DNA of 33,743 nt from Syntrophales bacterium. GTDB lineage: Bacteria; Desulfobacterota; Syntrophia; Syntrophales; UBA2210. Under the pieces are notes generated by a model, which was not told the DNA's origin, made no database searches, and was given only the letters and a program-made list of their open reading frames with translations. The translations under genes were made by a program, and so were the position numbers. Of this stretch, positions 1,167 to 12,548 are shown in pieces. Within the stretch, counting starts at the first letter, position 1. Each line of letters starts with the position of its first letter. The stretch lies in the NCBI GenBank assembly GCA_028718565.1, contig JAQULO010000015.1:1-33743 (forward strand), in the 5' to 3' direction.

Positions 1167-2063
1167 TCACTGAAAATCCGGTTTTTTGCCCACCAGGTTC
1201 AGATAGTCGCGGCAGGTCACGAAACTACACCCCTTCACATGGCTGAACAGTGCGGACAATTTGTGTTGAGTCCGGCTCAGGTTTACGTAATGCCTGAATC
1301 TGTAAAATGCGGGGATCGTATCGATTCTGGGCTGGCCCGGGTCGATCTCCCAAGGGTGGATGTAGAAGAGATATGCACCCTCTCCTTTCAGTATCGACTG
1401 AACACCCAGGCGAAAGATAAACAGGGGAATAAGACGGAAATACCCCCCGCCCCCCCATGGTAAAATCCTCCCGTACAACGTAAGGTTGCTGATGGGAAGC
1501 TCATAGAAGGTGCTGGAAATTTTTACGGCAACTCCCGCTGTTGCATATTGCGTAAGGTCCATCCTGCCATATCGCCTGTTGATTCCGAAGGAATTATAAC
1601 TTGAATCATAACGATACCCGCACGCTTCGATGATCTTCAGTACATCATCGGTGATGGAAAAACTGGGCGCACGGTACCCATAGACGGCCTCTCCGATGAT
1701 ATCCTCCAGAAGTTTCCTGCTATCGACCAGATCCTTTTCCAACTCTCCGGATGAGGACTCATTACAACATCGATGAAAATAGCCGTGAGATGCCACTTCA
1801 TGTCCCCGAGAACGTATCACACGCACCAGATGAGGAAGGCGTTCGGCGATCCATCCCAAAACAAAAAAGGTGGCCTGCGGCGGATTGTGTGTGCCCTTCA
1901 GTCTCATCGAATCAAGGAGATCGAGGATTCGATGGGTATTTTCTTCAACCCGTAATTCACGCGAAGACCATGAGGTAAAGGGGATTCCCTCCTTGAGGTT
2001 CTCCACCTGAAACCAGTCTTCAAGATCAACGGTAAGAAGGATATGATGGTCGATTGTGTTCAT
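1167..2063 (-). CDS. Polysaccharide deacetylase, XrtA/PEP-CTERM locus type
   Basis: This 298-residue cytoplasmic-looking protein has the NodB-type deacetylase fold, which removes N- or O-acetyl groups from polysaccharides. The motif TVDLEDW (D13, D16) at the N-terminus, HEVASHGYFH (H93, H97) and YGYRAPSFS near residue 130 supply the expected catalytic Asp, metal-binding His pair and Arg motif. HPWEIDPGQPR near residue 236 gives the C-terminal catalytic His. The opening LLTVDLEDWFQVEN and the HPWE block are hallmarks of the deacetylase subfamily found in exosortase-linked exopolysaccharide clusters. No signal peptide is evident. It is followed by the FemAB-like gene and faces away from the SLBB export operon, so it probably modifies the polymer that the export system secretes. 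The Shine-Dalgarno before the ATG is weak. Confidence 0.92.
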   Translation of the reverse strand: MNTIDHHILLTVDLEDWFQVENLKEGIPFTSWSSRELRVEENTHRILDLLDSMRLKGTHNPPQATFFVLGWIAERLPHLVRVIRSRGHEVASHGYFHRCCNESSSGELEKDLVDSRKLLEDIIGEAVYGYRAPSFSITDDVLKIIEACGYRYDSSYNSFGINRRYGRMDLTQYATAGVAVKISSTFYELPISNLTLYGRILPWGGGGYFRLIPLFIFRLGVQSILKGEGAYLFYIHPWEIDPGQPRIDTIPAFYRFRHYVNLSRTQHKLSALFSHVKGCSFVTCRDYLNLVGKKPDFQ

Positions 2064-2664: not shown

Positions 2665-5172
2665 GTGCACGGTAAGATAATGATAAAAAAAGTCTCTTTG
2701 CAGGTCGCGCAGCAGTTGTTTCTCATAGTTCTCCTCGCTACCATTGCCTGCGCCGATTACGGCCTCCTGTTAAACTCCTACAGAAGTAAGGAAGCTGCGT
2801 TGCAGGATGTTCTCACCTTGACCAAGCAGGGTCAAAGCGTGGTCGCTGAGGAGATTCGGATGCCGGGGAGCGGCACTTGGTACAGAGTCTGTATTGGTCC
2901 TTTCGTTACGAAGGATGAGACCTTGGAACAGAGACGGGTCATGCGACTCAATGGGTATAAGGGCGACACCTTCGTTGTAAAGGTCAACACAAACAACCTT
3001 ATCACTTCCGGAATGCTTGGCACGGAGGAGTTCCCCCCTACTCAAGCCAAGGCTGCCGTCCCTCCACCAGAAGGGACGGTTACGGTGGAATGGGATGCCA
3101 GTAAAGATCCCAGCCTTGCCGGATACAAGATCTATTATGACACGGATTCCGGCCCGCCCTACGAGCCTGTCGAGGCTGACTACGCCGATGAAGGTCCGCC
3201 CCCGATTCAAGTGGGCCGTGAGGTTACCAAAATCACGCTTCATGGCCTGAGCAGTGCGAAGAAATATTTCTTCGCCATAACCTCTCTTAATGCGAGCGGT
3301 GCTGAAGGCGGCTATTCAACCGAGATAGCGGCGCTTCCGGCATATACGGATACGAAAGCTCCCGGCATCGGCGACACGAGGCAGCCCAAAGTTAGACCCG
3401 CCATTCCCTCTAAGGCCCCAGCCGTTGTAGCCGGAACACCTGATGACAAAAGGTATACATTTTCTATACAGTCACAGCCTGTCAAATCTCCCTCGTCCAG
3501 TCCCAAAAGCTCTTATCAGAAAAAACTGTCATCTCGCTCTGCGTCCGCCGCCTCTTCAGCCTTAGGGGAAAAGGACTCTCTTGTCGCTCCGGGTGATATT
3601 CTGAGGATAGAGGTCCCGGGCCAGAAGGAGATGAGCTATGATTACGACGTTGATCCCGATGGCAACATCTACATGTTAATTGTCGGCAAGGTCGTGGTCC
3701 AGGGCCTCAGTGAAGCCGGTCTGAGCGATAAATTGACCAAGGTGTCTAGACCATTTGTTGCCAAAGGAGAGAGGGTGTTGGTCCAGATCCTGGAACGGAA
3801 ACGGTATATACATATCCAGGGAGGTGTGCGCTATCCCGGTTGGTATCGAGTCCCATCCCGGGCGGCGGTGGACAACTTGCTCAAGATGGCTGGGGGGGCG
3901 GTATCGAAGTCAGTTTATTCAGGAATTAAACTCAGGCGGAATGCAGGGGGTGGGGATAAAGAGTTCGACGTGCAGGGGGAAATTGCCTTCCAGCCAAATG
4001 ATGTCCTGGTCGTTCCGGCTCCTAAGACCTATCGACAAGAAGTCGATAAGGGTGATCTTCTGTTTATCAGCCTGCCCCAGAGACAGGCCCCCGGAAAGCG
4101 GCAAGACACGACGGACTCGGCTGATTTAACCCAGTCGCTGGCGCAAAACCAGATCGAGATTGACAGAAACGGGTATATCTATATCCCTAACTATGGGCAC
4201 ATTTTCGTTAACAAATTGACAACCGAGGAAATCAAAAAAGAGATTGAGGTCCGGCTCCCTAAATACATTGCTGTTCTCGAGAAGGTAGAGGTCAGCATCA
4301 TTGAGAAAAAACACTATGTTGAGGTGTTGGGGCATGTTACCAACCCGGGCTGGTACAATATCCCGGAGACAGCAAATATTCAGGAAACGGTCGCCGTAGC
4401 GGGTGGAGCTGTTGACGGGGCGACCATGAGCGGTGTCGTTATCCAGAGAAGTCTGAATGGAGATGCCGAAAAGGTAACGGTAAACCTCTACCAGTTCACG
4501 ATAACCGGGGACGGCAGGCTTCTCACACCGATTCATGAAAATGATATTATCTTTGTGCCGATCTCTCCTAATTTCGGTAATATAAAAAGAACACTTGATG
4601 CTTGGAATCCACCCACCGAAAGGCTGGAAGAGGACGTCAAGAAAAAGGTCAGGATATTCGGGGCTATCCGCAACCCTGGGATCTACGAGGCTTCAGAGGA
4701 CATGAATCTTGTCGACCTCATGGTCCTCGCCAGCGGAGAGGACGAATTTGCTGAGCTGACCGATATAGCGATCATACGGGATGGCAAGGTGCAGACGCGA
4801 TTCGATCTGGAGGAATTCCTGCACGGTAAGGCAAAGGGGGGCACAAGACCTCTGCCCGTACTGCGGAGCGGAGACACCGTGTATGTTACGCGTATCGAGA
4901 CAACGACCAAAGAGTCCCAGGACAGGGTGTACATCGTCGGTAAGGTCCTGCGACCGGGGTCGTACGAACTGTACGACGATATGACGGTTCTCCAGGCCCT
5001 TGCATGGGCGGGTGGTTTGACTGAATGGGCCGATTCGAATAACATCACGATTGTTCGTATGGTAGATGGAAAGCAGGAGAACATTCCCTTCAACTACGAC
5101 AAAGGGGTGAGAGGAAGAGTTCCTGAGTTGAATATACGGATGGCACCGAATGACACCATCATCGTGCCGTAA
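2665..5172 (+). CDS. Polysaccharide export protein with SPOR, FN3 and four SLBB domains
   Basis: This is a large exported protein of about 835 residues. I place the start at GTG 2665, five bases after GAGGGG; ATG 2680 in the same frame is the alternative. An N-terminal signal segment (VAQQLFLIVLLATIACA) is followed by a SPOR-like domain (about residues 33-100), which binds peptidoglycan in other proteins, and a fibronectin type III domain (about 125-215). Two polysaccharide-export domains begin near 305 (VAPGDILRIEV) and 461 (KGDLLFISLP). Four SLBB domains start near 382, 550, 661 and 754, each with the signature G.V..PGWY or a variant such as GAIRNPGIYEA. Wza-type proteins with this core form the outer-membrane channel for exopolysaccharide. 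Cys29 could be lipidated but the lipobox (TIAC) is poor. Three lipoprotein genes follow on the same strand. Confidence 0.9.
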   Translation: MHGKIMIKKVSLQVAQQLFLIVLLATIACADYGLLLNSYRSKEAALQDVLTLTKQGQSVVAEEIRMPGSGTWYRVCIGPFVTKDETLEQRRVMRLNGYKGDTFVVKVNTNNLITSGMLGTEEFPPTQAKAAVPPPEGTVTVEWDASKDPSLAGYKIYYDTDSGPPYEPVEADYADEGPPPIQVGREVTKITLHGLSSAKKYFFAITSLNASGAEGGYSTEIAALPAYTDTKAPGIGDTRQPKVRPAIPSKAPAVVAGTPDDKRYTFSIQSQPVKSPSSSPKSSYQKKLSSRSASAASSALGEKDSLVAPGDILRIEVPGQKEMSYDYDVDPDGNIYMLIVGKVVVQGLSEAGLSDKLTKVSRPFVAKGERVLVQILERKRYIHIQGGVRYPGWYRVPSRAAVDNLLKMAGGAVSKSVYSGIKLRRNAGGGDKEFDVQGEIAFQPNDVLVVPAPKTYRQEVDKGDLLFISLPQRQAPGKRQDTTDSADLTQSLAQNQIEIDRNGYIYIPNYGHIFVNKLTTEEIKKEIEVRLPKYIAVLEKVEVSIIEKKHYVEVLGHVTNPGWYNIPETANIQETVAVAGGAVDGATMSGVVIQRSLNGDAEKVTVNLYQFTITGDGRLLTPIHENDIIFVPISPNFGNIKRTLDAWNPPTERLEEDVKKKVRIFGAIRNPGIYEASEDMNLVDLMVLASGEDEFAELTDIAIIRDGKVQTRFDLEEFLHGKAKGGTRPLPVLRSGDTVYVTRIETTTKESQDRVYIVGKVLRPGSYELYDDMTVLQALAWAGGLTEWADSNNITIVRMVDGKQENIPFNYDKGVRGRVPELNIRMAPNDTIIVP

Positions 5173-5214
5173 AAGGTTAAAATGCCCATATATTTTGATT
5201 TGGGGAGAAGGTTT

Positions 5215-5946
5215 ATGAAAAACAAAGGGAAAACGATAGGGCTTTTGGTTTTGTGTCTCATCACCGCGTTGATCCTGGCTTCATGTGCGACGGACATGTC
5301 CACGCGGGCGACTCGCGTCAGGCTGGTTTCCGCCGAGCAGGTTCACCAGTGCGAAATTCGGTGTGAAGCCCTTGGAAGTGTACAGGGTTCTTCGTATCCG
5401 GCTGGCGGATGTCTCTCCTGGTGGGGTACGGTGCGGAAGATAGCCCACAACAATGCGCTCAATGAACTGCTGGATAACGCCGCTGAGATCGGTGCAACTC
5501 ATCTGTTCGTCAACCTGGGAGATTATCCTGATTTGAGAGGAGACGCGTATCGTTGCGCCTTTTGCGAAGATGCCAATGGTGACCCGGATGTGGCGTATTG
5601 CGTGGACGCCGGCGGCACCCGAAAGAGGGCGTATTGTCAAGGGGCCGATGGTAAGGTTGTAGGCGCTGCGTATTGTCGGGGAGGTGACGGGAAGGGCCCT
5701 GCCGACTGTAGGGAGAATGGCGGGGTATGGGTACCTGCGGTCAAAGAAACGAAGTGTGAGACCATGGGTGGTGCGTGGGTTCCTGAAGCTGAGAATCGGC
5801 AGGCATGCGAAGCCAATGGAGATATATGGCTCCCTGCTGCGAAGGATCCGACAGCCTGTGAAAACAAAGGGGGAAAATGGGTTCTCGATCAAGATGTTCT
5901 CCGCCGTTTACCATCAGGCAGTCCCCCGCAAGAAGAGGTTAAATAG
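5215..5946 (+). CDS. DUF4156-like outer-membrane lipoprotein with Cys-rich tail repeats
   Basis: The start is ATG 5215, preceded by GGGGAGAAGG at a good distance; the in-frame ATG at 5182 would add 11 residues without a signal function. The product (243 residues) has a clean lipoprotein signal ending LASC (Cys24) with Ala at +2, which favours outer-membrane sorting. Residues 35-105 (VRLVSAEQVHQCEIRCEALG onward to AAEIGATHLFV) resemble the DUF4156 family of small lipoproteins. The C-terminal half is unusual. First come Cys-rich, Gly/Asp-rich segments (AYCQGADGK, AYCRGGDGK), then four units built like C..NGG.WVP: RENGGVWVP, ETMGGAWVP, EANGDIWLP and ENKGGKWVL. Function is unknown. Its place 42 bp after the export protein suggests a role in the envelope exopolysaccharide apparatus. 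Confidence 0.8.
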   Translation: MKNKGKTIGLLVLCLITALILASCATDMSTRATRVRLVSAEQVHQCEIRCEALGSVQGSSYPAGGCLSWWGTVRKIAHNNALNELLDNAAEIGATHLFVNLGDYPDLRGDAYRCAFCEDANGDPDVAYCVDAGGTRKRAYCQGADGKVVGAAYCRGGDGKGPADCRENGGVWVPAVKETKCETMGGAWVPEAENRQACEANGDIWLPAAKDPTACENKGGKWVLDQDVLRRLPSGSPPQEEVK

Positions 5947-6001: not shown

Positions 6002-6742
6002 ATGTCGAAGTCCACATTTTTAGGGGTGTGTAGGGTGGCGGTCCTGTTCATGCTGCTGGCGATCTTCGGTTGTGCGACAAGCGGACGGTTTTATGTCCCC
6101 AAGCCGATTCCCATAAAGCCCGGGACGGTCCTCAAGCCGGAGTATAACATCGTGTGCTCTGTGAACCTTATCAATAGTCAAACAAGCTCACAGTGGGTTA
6201 GCATTGGAGACTACACGCATAAGTGGTCGGCAAATCTGCTCATGTGGACAGACACTGCTGTCGGGCTTCTCAAAGATGAGCTGGTAAAACGGGGGGTGGT
6301 CATTTCTGAAAAATCGCCCAAAACCCTGAAGCTTTCAATCACAAGGGTGAAGCTGTTCTGGGGGTTTGACGCTATCGGATGCACCCTAAATCTTAACGCG
6401 ACAACCGGTGACGGGTACGTCGTAAACCACGAGGAAACCGGCACTGCAAAAGATCTTTATGAAAGTTGCGATACCGCGGTGTCAAAAGCGGTAGCAGCTA
6501 TGTTCACGGATCCCGGAATCCAGGATTATCTCACAACTTCAAAAATATTCAGGGATTCGGATGGAGACGGAGTGCCCAACGACGTAGATGAATGCCCCGA
6601 GACACCTGAGGGTGTGAGGGTTGACAGCAGGGGGTGCCCGCTGGACGGCGATGGCGATGGTTTTCCTGACTACCTTGACAAATGCCCCGGAACACCCGGG
6701 GGCATGGAAGTTGACTGCGACGGGTGTCCTCCGGATAAGTAG
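6002..6742 (+). CDS. Lipoprotein with two TSP3 repeats, OmpA domain lost
   Basis: The ATG at 6002 follows GGGGGAGAG. The 246-residue product has a lipoprotein signal (LLAIFGCATSG, Cys24) and a domain of about 150 residues reminiscent of YajG-type lipoproteins (VGLLKDELVKRGVVI, LKLSITRVKLFW). The C-terminus has two exact 30-residue thrombospondin type 3 repeats at 6554-6643 and 6644-6733 (DSDGDGVPNDVDECPETPEG and the next unit). Such Asp-rich repeats bind calcium and normally lead into an OmpA peptidoglycan-binding domain, as in the next gene. Here the frame stops straight after the second repeat, and a decayed piece of an OmpA C-terminus follows in the next 150 bp. The gene is therefore probably a truncated remnant, although the frame is intact and a secreted protein could still be made. 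Confidence 0.75.
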   Translation: MSKSTFLGVCRVAVLFMLLAIFGCATSGRFYVPKPIPIKPGTVLKPEYNIVCSVNLINSQTSSQWVSIGDYTHKWSANLLMWTDTAVGLLKDELVKRGVVISEKSPKTLKLSITRVKLFWGFDAIGCTLNLNATTGDGYVVNHEETGTAKDLYESCDTAVSKAVAAMFTDPGIQDYLTTSKIFRDSDGDGVPNDVDECPETPEGVRVDSRGCPLDGDGDGFPDYLDKCPGTPGGMEVDCDGCPPDK

Positions 6743-6744
6743 TT

Positions 6745-6900
6745 ATGGCGTGCCAGGGTAGTTGGTTGTGAACTGCCTTACCTGGTAAGAGCGCCATAGA
6801 TAAGGAACGGTTCTCTGTCGTAGGGTATGGATGGTTTTTCAGGGCCTGGGGCGTCGAGTGAGACCGCGGGCGGAAGGACACTGAACCCGGGGGTCCGGTG
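6745..6900 (+). pseudogene. Decayed OmpA C-terminal relic
   Basis: Conceptual translation in shifting frames recovers the end of an OmpA domain. AIDKERFSVVGYGW matches VDRNRLYPVGYGF of the intact neighbour at about 7680, and ASSETAGGRTLNPGV matches ASNESAEGRALNRRV at about 7730. The DNA also aligns over this stretch with indels (for example GGGTATGG next to a T run in both). The first part of an OmpA domain, the FDFDKS to YNQILSNRRAE portion, is absent. The simplest reading is that the upstream TSP3 lipoprotein once ended in OmpA and lost it by deletion and frameshifts. Confidence 0.65.
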
Positions 6901-6960
6901 TCACGGGTATCGGTGATGTCGGTATGGACTGGCTGTCCGAAAAGATTTGAGAGGTATCAG

Positions 6961-7797
6961 ATGAATAAAATAACACTACTTGGCGGTATGATTATATGTA
7001 TTCTTACACTGGGATGCGCCCCCAACTATTCCCTGATGGATTCCGACAGTCACTCCAAAAAAGGGATATCACCACGGGAAGATGCCCAACTCTCATGTCT
7101 CAAGTCAGGACCAACGGAAGAATGTATGAGATCAAAGCAATATTCCCTCAAAGACCAAACACCGTCGGGCGTGAAGGTTGACGAGTTGGGGTGTCCGCTG
7201 GACAGTGACGGTGACGGCGTACCCGATCACCTCGATAAATGCCCCGGAACACCGGAGGGCGTAAAGGTTGACAGCAGGGGATGTCCGTTGGACAGCGACG
7301 GTGACGGCGTACCCGATTACCTCGATAAATGCCTCGAAACGCCGGAGGGCGTGGAAGTTGATTGCAAGGGGTGTCCGTTGGACAGCGACAGTGACGGTGT
7401 ATCAGATTCCTTCGACAAATGCCCTGGAACGCCGCTGGGCGCACTGATTGATGAAGATGGATGCTGGACCATTGGGGAACCCTTATTCGACTTTGATAAA
7501 TCCGATATTAAGACTGAGTACCATCCAATTCTTGATCAGGTCATCATTGTATTTGAGAGAAATCCCTCTTTGAGAGCTGAGGTCCGGGGTTATACGGATA
7601 ATTTCGGGGCCCAGGCCTACAACCAGATACTCTCCAACAGGCGCGCCGAGGCGGTGGTTAGTTACCTGGTACAGGGTGGCGTAGACAGGAATCGACTCTA
7701 CCCCGTGGGGTATGGGTTTTCAACGCCTAGAGCCTCTAATGAATCTGCGGAAGGAAGGGCGTTGAACCGGAGGGTCGAGATTCTGCCAGTTCAGTGA
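6961..7797 (+). CDS. OmpA-family lipoprotein with TSP3 repeats
   Basis: The start is ATG 6961 after GAGAGG; the upstream in-frame ATG at 6898 lies in the relic of the previous gene. The 278-residue product has a lipoprotein signal (ILTLGCAPN, Cys19). A linker leads into three tandem 30-residue thrombospondin type 3 repeats at 7201, 7291 and 7381 (period exactly 90 bp, DSDGDGVPDHLDKCPGTPEG), preceded by a partial unit. The C-terminal 110 residues are a complete OmpA peptidoglycan-binding domain: PLFDFDKSDIK, VRGYTDNFG, NQILSNRRAEAVVSYL, GYGFSTPRASN and the terminal GRALNRRVEI. It should tether the outer membrane to peptidoglycan, with the repeats as a calcium-stiffened stalk. It is the last gene of the plus-strand envelope group. 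Confidence 0.92.
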   Translation: MNKITLLGGMIICILTLGCAPNYSLMDSDSHSKKGISPREDAQLSCLKSGPTEECMRSKQYSLKDQTPSGVKVDELGCPLDSDGDGVPDHLDKCPGTPEGVKVDSRGCPLDSDGDGVPDYLDKCLETPEGVEVDCKGCPLDSDSDGVSDSFDKCPGTPLGALIDEDGCWTIGEPLFDFDKSDIKTEYHPILDQVIIVFERNPSLRAEVRGYTDNFGAQAYNQILSNRRAEAVVSYLVQGGVDRNRLYPVGYGFSTPRASNESAEGRALNRRVEILPVQ

Positions 7798-11395: not shown

Positions 11396-12548
11396 TCACT
11401 CCTTCTCCAGAGCCGCCCGAACAGTCATGCCGTCCGCAGGGGCCTTGAGGGTTGAAAAGGCGACCATCTCGCCATCCTCAAGACCTGATTCCAAAACGAC
11501 CTCTTCCCCCTGATAACGGGCAACCCTGACTGTCCGAAAATGAAGGATGCCTTCACCATCCACGGTCCACACGATATCTCCCTGTCGGAGGGCGGCCCGC
11601 GGGATGACGGCCGCACCAGGCAGCACCTGTCCCCTGATGTCAACGGTCACGAAGAGACCGATCGCAAGGGGCGGTTTTGTCGTATACGGTCTGTCAACCC
11701 GCACGATAACGGTTATCATCCGGGTCTTTTCATCCACCTTCCCCTCGGCGCGGACCACTTCCCCTGAAAAGGTCAATTTCCGCCCCGCAATTTCGGCATG
11801 AACGGTGGCAGGCGACCCGGATCTTGCGTCGGTTGTAAATCCGGGGACATCAAACCAGAAGAGATTTTTGTCCTCCATCGACATATTTTTTGCTGACGCG
11901 ACCGTCAAAAGGAGCCTTCAAGACAGCCCTTTCACGGTTAAGGAGGGTCTTCTCCAGATCGGCGCGACTGGCCTCAAGCCTGGCCTGGGCCGCCTCCCGT
12001 TGTGGTTTTTTGGCCACCAGGGGAGGGGGCTCTTCGACGACGTGAGAGGTGTCCGAGTAGTGGGCCCGCCATTCTTCCTGTGCAATCAGGGCCACCTGCT
12101 GAATAATCTTCAGATTGCTTTCCGCATCCTTAACCTGTGCCTGTGCCAGGGTAACGGCCAGGTCATAATCGACAGGGTCTATTGCGAGCAGCACGTGTCC
12201 CTTGGTGAATGACCCGCCATTGACCAGGGCTGGGGAGATACGGACGATCTTGCCGCCGACCTGCGGGACGAGATTGATTTCCCTCAGCGGGTTCACCGTT
12301 CCCTCACCCCTGATCGTGATTGCCTGCGGCCCTGTTGAGACCTTCATGACACGAACCATGGGCACCGGAACGGAAGGGTCTATCTTTTCAAGTCGGGATT
12401 TGCTCGCCATCAGCGTACCCATGATGATGCTTCCAACGATGACGAGTGCCACGCTTACGATGATATGGGTGCCACGTTTTCCTTTTCGGTCCATTGTCGT
12501 TTCCCTGGAAGATTGGTTTTCAGTCATGGATTTTCCGTTCTCTTTCAT
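11396..12548 (-). pseudogene. Frameshifted, internally deleted RND membrane fusion protein
   Basis: Two overlapping minus-strand frames together make up one periplasmic adaptor. The upstream frame (12548-11850) has a membrane anchor (HIIVSVALVIVGSIIMGTLM), the first half of the biotinyl-lipoyl hybrid domain, a helical hairpin and its return (RAVLKAPFDGRVSKKYVDGG), then stops. The downstream frame (from about 11890 to 11396) resumes with MEDKNLFWFDVPGF and carries the beta-barrel and membrane-proximal domains to the end (VRAEGKVDEKTRMI, PPLAIGLFVTVDI, VIPRAALRQGDIVW). In intact relatives roughly 25-30 residues lie between these points, so sequence has been lost and the frame shifted near the A5 run at 11865-11869. 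The start ATG overlaps the nodT stop (ATGA). A sequencing error could explain the shift but not the missing residues. Confidence 0.8.

Follow-up and report, generated by a model that had tools for sequence, protein, structure and literature searches.

We analyzed a 33,743-nucleotide stretch of DNA from a Syntrophales bacterium (assembly GCA_028718565.1, contig JAQULO010000015.1), hereafter called the window, in which a polysaccharide exporter of the OPX type carries additional domains at its N-terminus (Table 1). The open reading frame encodes 835 residues, begins with GTG, and has an AGAGGGG stretch directly 5′ of it. It had originally been predicted, from boundaries placed by eye in residues 33 to 215, that a SPOR and an FN3 domain precede two export domains and four SLBB domains in one chain. 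Pfam profiles bear out this order, and the placement by eye was almost exact when set against the Pfam borders (residues 32–99 and 124–221). Both SPOR (PF05036, 31.6 bits, cut-off 21, E = 2e-7) and FN3 (PF00041, 26.5 bits, cut-off 25, E = 8e-6) score above their curated cut-offs, as do Poly_export (PF02563, two stretches, 74.2 bits) and SLBB (PF10531, four stretches, 124.3 bits). The SPOR domain comes first in the mature chain and, together with the FN3 domain and the link that follows, makes up an arm of roughly 270 residues. Because relatives carry ASA-DY, ANA-DF, and AFA-DY at the same position of the alignment, cleavage by signal peptidase I is likelier than lipoprotein processing.

Table 1. 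Positions of the exporter gene, its domains, and neighboring genes in the window
Feature	Position	Strand	Basis
FemAB-type XrtA-associated protein, at contig edge	2..1102	-	TIGR03019, 289.9 bits, cut-off 260.35
XrtA-associated polysaccharide deacetylase	1167..2063	-	TIGR03006, 278.3 bits, cut-off 276.2
OPX protein, SPOR-FN3-(Poly_export-SLBB)-(Poly_export-SLBB-SLBB-SLBB)	2665..5172	+	Pfam, NCBIfam
Signal peptide, residues 1–30	2665..2754	+	Alignment with relatives; cleavage read by eye
SPOR domain, residues 32–99	2758..2961	+	Pfam; fold match to RlpA SPOR 6i09_A
FN3 domain, residues 124–221	3034..3327	+	Pfam; many FN3 structures, Z about 9
Link, about 80 residues, poorly conserved, low model confidence	3328..3564	+	Alignment, AlphaFold2
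Poly_export domain 1, then SLBB1	3571..3786	+	Pfam, profile search
Poly_export domain 2, then SLBB2	4048..4296	+	Pfam, profile search
SLBB3 (borders by alignment)	4642..4884	+	Pfam, alignment
SLBB4, end of chain, no Wza_C helix	4924..5169	+	Pfam, alignment
Predicted lipoprotein, conserved neighbor	5182..5946	+	75% (L038) and 48% (L039) identity
Predicted lipoprotein carrying TSP3 repeats; stops short of the OmpA domain present in its homologues	6002..6742	+	
TSP3-OmpA protein, second peptidoglycan-binding-type domain of the locus	6898..7797	+	Profile matches

The deacetylase and FemAB-type genes lie upstream of the exporter gene and are divergent from it. Both products score above the cut-offs of their NCBIfam models, in agreement with the original description of XrtA-type modification genes adjoining the exporter, and the domains and flanking genes together support its assignment as the polysaccharide exporter of an XrtA-linked locus. 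Homologues of the small lipoprotein encoded directly 3′ of the exporter are also found near the exporter in the related loci L038 and L039; the L039 homologue matches DUF4156 weakly, as does one protein of locus L144. The OmpA-bearing homologues of the TSP3 lipoprotein lie at L038 10965–12701 and L039 6300–7754, and in the window the OmpA domain is found in the next gene. Four loci (window, L038, L039, and L144) have a gene for an OmpA-domain protein close to the exporter gene.

Directly 5′ of the exporter gene is a 99-base direct repeat (2439–2537 and 2555–2653, 88% identical). The same place in genome G002 holds a single copy, 90% identical over 77 bases, and the repeat is duplicated only in the window. 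A role as promoter or operator element is possible; the repeat folds weakly (z of −1.7 and −1.9), and an Rfam search of the window gave no match. Further downstream, two overlapping minus-strand frames (11396–12548) correspond to the first and last parts of the RND periplasmic adaptor model TIGR01730; the gene is frameshifted or decayed, or the assembly is in error there.

Exporter class, partner barrel, and pathway

OPX proteins are sorted by the C-terminus: a Wza_C helix defines Class 1, GfcC Class 2, and the presence of neither Class 3 (PMC9603273). Pfam found neither Wza_C nor GfcC in the exporter at E values up to 10, and SLBB4 forms the end of the chain in all seven family members compared (the window protein and six relatives). 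We therefore file the exporter as Class 3 by Pfam domain content, the HHpred step belonging to the published scheme (PMC9603273). The original description of a Wza-type exporter holds as far as polysaccharide export is concerned; the protein is not strictly Wza-like, since it has neither the Wza_C helix nor a lipoprotein site conserved in its relatives. Residues 454–634 match residues 61–232 of the Escherichia coli Wza chain (2j58), from which the exporter differs further by an extra Poly_export-SLBB unit, an extra SLBB domain, and the arm. The best NCBIfam model is that of the XrtA/PEP-CTERM export protein, TIGR03027, which fits the XrtA-associated context; however, the score of 142.2 bits is below the curated cut-off of 180, and the 835-residue chain contrasts with a model of 169 positions.

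The alternating layout is characteristic of the branch to which the exporter belongs. With a profile built from 40 survey proteins, nine of ten branch members were found to have two Poly_export domains that are separated by about 145 residues and flank an SLBB domain, the tenth being a shorter protein from genome G481 that has one Poly_export domain and aligns to exporter residues 460–835. More than one Poly_export match was present in 5 of the 40 survey OPX proteins, among the matches listed, and in all five the matches are adjacent. The layout looks like the product of a duplication of the Poly_export-SLBB unit. One frame, L070:1338–3581 (genome G211), encodes a CpsB/CapC phosphatase (PF19567, 7e-52) together with Poly_export and SLBB domains, and is either a true fusion or the result of a stop codon having been lost.

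Class 3 OPX proteins of Myxococcus pair with beta-barrels (PMC9603273), and the WzaX/S/B and WzpX/S/B proteins described there resemble the window family in having Poly_export and SLBB domains, no Wza_C or GfcC, and, in the relatives of the window protein, an adjoining barrel. The differences from the Myxococcus proteins as described are the two alternating Poly_export-SLBB units, the N-terminal SPOR-FN3 arm, and the type of barrel, which is TIGR03016/BBP2_2 in the window family versus PgaA-like in Myxococcus (PMC9603273). In L039 (after 11 bases), L052, L054, L055, and L144, the gene next after the OPX gene encodes a TIGR03016/BBP2_2 barrel, with the L054 match falling below the BBP2_2 cut-off. 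In G002 the barrel gene lies 3.2 kb downstream of the OPX gene and overlaps a chain-length gene; a second small exporter-like frame of 251 amino acids (C73:53913–55099) adjoins another BBP2_2 barrel in that genome.

The window protein is the only Poly_export protein in its 98%-complete genome. The barrel gene of this genome is located on contig C8 rather than on the exporter contig, and there overlaps, at C8:26400, a gene for a chain-length-type protein named by its likeness to the G002 counterpart. Because C8 also encodes an exosortase, a Wzx-type flippase, a Wzy_C protein, glycosyltransferases, and aminotransferases, the gene content points to a Wzx/Wzy-type, XrtA-linked exopolysaccharide system. 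In genome G001, a member of the same genus, searches recovered neither the exporter nor the exosortase nor the barrel, so the locus is patchy.

Fold and distribution of the SPOR-FN3 arm

The exporter core is ordinary, and the arm is what is unusual. An AlphaFold2 model of residues 31–235, built from seven alignment rows (mean pLDDT 71), shows a beta-alpha-beta-beta-alpha-beta domain that a disordered link connects to a beta-sandwich. The first domain matches 6i09_A, the SPOR domain of Pseudomonas aeruginosa RlpA in a structure with denuded glycan (Z 8.8, rmsd 3.1, 76 residues, Foldseek E = 8.2e-3), and the second resembles many FN3 structures (Z about 9). The Z scores are of the middling size that small domains usually give, and the matches are consistent with the Pfam profiles; structure prediction, which had been proposed as a check, recovered both an RNP-like SPOR fold and an FN3 fold. 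A sequence search of PDB chains with the SPOR stretch alone gave no SPOR match, whereas the fold search gave one. A full-length model made from three sequences (pLDDT 42.6, pTM 0.23) was set aside.

A protein 69% identical to the exporter is encoded in a Syntrophaceae MAG (UBA6078), and one 46% identical in a Desulfobacteraceae MAG (L039). The SPOR-fused relatives are about 70% (L038/G002, the same genus as the window), 45% (L039), and, over the core, about 49% (L052/G400) identical. The fusion is on this comparison neither a chance event nor an assembly join, because SPOR recurs at the mature N-terminus of these three other proteins. FN3 is less uniform: it scores 24.5 bits in L039, just below the cut-off, and a weak 18.9 bits in L038, and Pfam did not find it in L052/G400.

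The frequency of the domain order was assessed in genome sets that overlap one another. Among 155 genomes of the class, four had a match at E = 1e-25 or better, two of them SPOR-fused and two (G111 and G154) without SPOR. Among 395 genomes of the phylum there were five, of which the window's own genome and G400 are SPOR-fused, G481 is not, and G243 and G272 match only exporter residues 737–835. Within the order of G400 (291 genomes), four matched at E = 1e-40 or better: G400 is fused, G567 and G615 lack SPOR, and the G585 exporter is cut at a contig end. SPOR was present in four of nine two-export members compared (two of the same genus and two distant), absent from four, and indeterminate in one that is cut, which places it in four proteins from three genera or more. 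For comparison, 40 long OPX proteins from 148 genomes of the phylum, defined as frames of at least 386 amino acids among the matches listed, gave no SPOR and two fn3 matches. The surveys thus indicate that the fusion is genuine and rare, and that it recurs.

A search of 50 proteins with a profile trained on the exporter SPOR domains detected SPOR in four, all of them members of the training set. Other SPOR proteins recovered by searching were rejected as exporters; five are SPOR-TPR proteins, one of them with SPOR just below the cut-off. A plasmid collection yielded only distant SLBB proteins, in three records. Our searches of the open-licence literature, and the text consulted of the OPX survey (PMC9603273), turned up no description of an OPX protein with SPOR, and the open-licence papers that join a SPOR domain with polysaccharide export are, in the text available, unrelated to a fusion.

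Because SPOR is missing from several close relatives (G111, G154, G567, G615, and the shorter G481 protein), the exporter core presumably works without it, and SPOR is presumably not needed for export as such. In a tree of seven cores, the branches that would order gain and loss of SPOR have support of 32–33.

Glycan contacts and the role of the arm

SPOR domains contact glycan through a Gln (RlpA Q270, FtsN Q251), which is the only highly conserved contact, a basic patch (R309; FtsN R285), FtsN W283, and, for much of the interface, the main chain (PMC6895207). In our alignment the Gln position is occupied by Leu35 in the window protein, Leu in G002, Ile in G400, and Gln in L039. The Trp equivalent to FtsN W283 is kept in all four (Trp72 in the window), and the equivalent of FtsN R285 is Arg in the window (Arg74), G002, and G400 and Lys in L039. 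Gln is thus lost in three of the four exporter SPORs, compared with 3 of the 19 other SPORs in six genomes whose rows include this position; the remaining 16 keep it. Note that 5 of 26 SPOR rows were left out of the alignment: four are without the Gln column, and the fifth (L133), with Val, is included in the 16-of-19 count. The conserved Gln is a common but not a strict feature of the family. Because Gln is lost while Trp and Arg are kept, the predicted glycan site is partly kept but weakened in the window lineage, and intact in L039.

How polysaccharide export conduits pass through the wall and are positioned in it is little known. Rings of Class 3 OPX proteins do not have their own membrane anchor, and a SPOR arm built into the chain is a simple possible answer. 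The reading to which we lean, with modest confidence, is that the protein forms a Class 3 ring of the XrtA pathway whose SPOR-FN3 arm holds the wall, much as the AMIN domains of PilQ do. Following Sec export and cleavage, subunits would assemble into a periplasmic ring stack in the order Poly_export-SLBB-Poly_export-SLBB-SLBB-SLBB, probably linking an inner-membrane chain-length protein to the TIGR03016/BBP2_2 outer-membrane barrel, through which the polymer would leave. Such a ring would have no outer-membrane helix or conserved lipid anchor; instead, the N-terminal SPOR domains, carried on flexible arms formed by FN3 and the disordered link, may hold glycan strands of the peptidoglycan, with assistance from the OmpA-domain lipoprotein of the same locus. 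With several arms per ring, avidity could offset a weak SPOR site. By analogy with PilQ, the mooring would place or stabilize a large wall-crossing conduit.

In PilQ, the nearest working precedent, N-terminal AMIN domains attach to peptidoglycan and direct the secretin to septa and new poles (PMC5285504, PMC10653833). The likeness to the exporter is that a multimeric envelope conduit carries an N-terminal domain of a peptidoglycan-binding type; the domains and cargo are unrelated, and the exporter is not a member of that group. With RlpA, FtsN, and DamX the exporter shares the SPOR fold and, as in FtsN, the glycan-face Trp and Arg, but it has lost the conserved Gln, and the host protein is an exporter rather than a division protein or wall enzyme. 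The wall-holding reading draws its observed part from domains at curated cut-offs, the fold of the arm, the gene context, and the recurrence of SPOR. Set against it are the SPOR-less relatives, the barrel lying off the exporter contig, and the loss of Gln, which by alignment is the main evidence against simple peptidoglycan binding.

That same loss is the starting point for another explanation, which we regard as rather unlikely: the SPOR domain of this lineage may no longer bind denuded glycan and may have been repurposed to contact proteins or polymer, for example the nascent deacetylase-modified polysaccharide or the OmpA/TSP3 lipoprotein. The change to Leu or Ile in three of four exporter SPORs, at a position most other SPORs keep, would fit such a change of role. 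FN3 domains, moreover, often occur in carbohydrate-active enzymes, which counts on the same side. However, the retained Trp72 and Arg74 positions (in the window, G002, and G400, with Lys for Arg in L039) speak for continued glycan contact, three of the 19 other SPORs likewise lack the Gln, and the contact is largely made by the main chain (PMC6895207).

It is possible, though we put this forward tentatively and with some doubt, that a captured division-type SPOR module installs or tethers the export ring at particular peptidoglycan sites, so that export would depend on the state of the wall, in the way that AMIN domains act for type IV pilus secretins. A tie of the channel to septal or denuded peptidoglycan had originally been suggested; in its specific form, that SPOR targets the exporter to the division septum, with polymer leaving at new cell walls, we consider it improbable. 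Known SPOR proteins do recognize septal glycan and act in division or morphogenesis (PMC6895207), and PilQ shows that an envelope conduit can be recruited to the septum (PMC5285504, PMC10653833); nevertheless, the key Gln is lost, and a ring of many low-affinity arms could bind the wall anywhere. PMC6895207 places every known SPOR protein in division or morphogenesis, so an exporter SPOR would widen the list of SPOR roles.

Very little weight falls on the arm as a passive extension without a role in export, gained and now being lost: G111, G154, G567, and G615 lack SPOR, FN3 was not found in G400, and the link is poorly conserved, but SPOR with its invariant positions has been kept over deep divergence (about 45% core identity). 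The relatives, which differ in the presence of the arm and of the Gln, form a ready natural comparison set.
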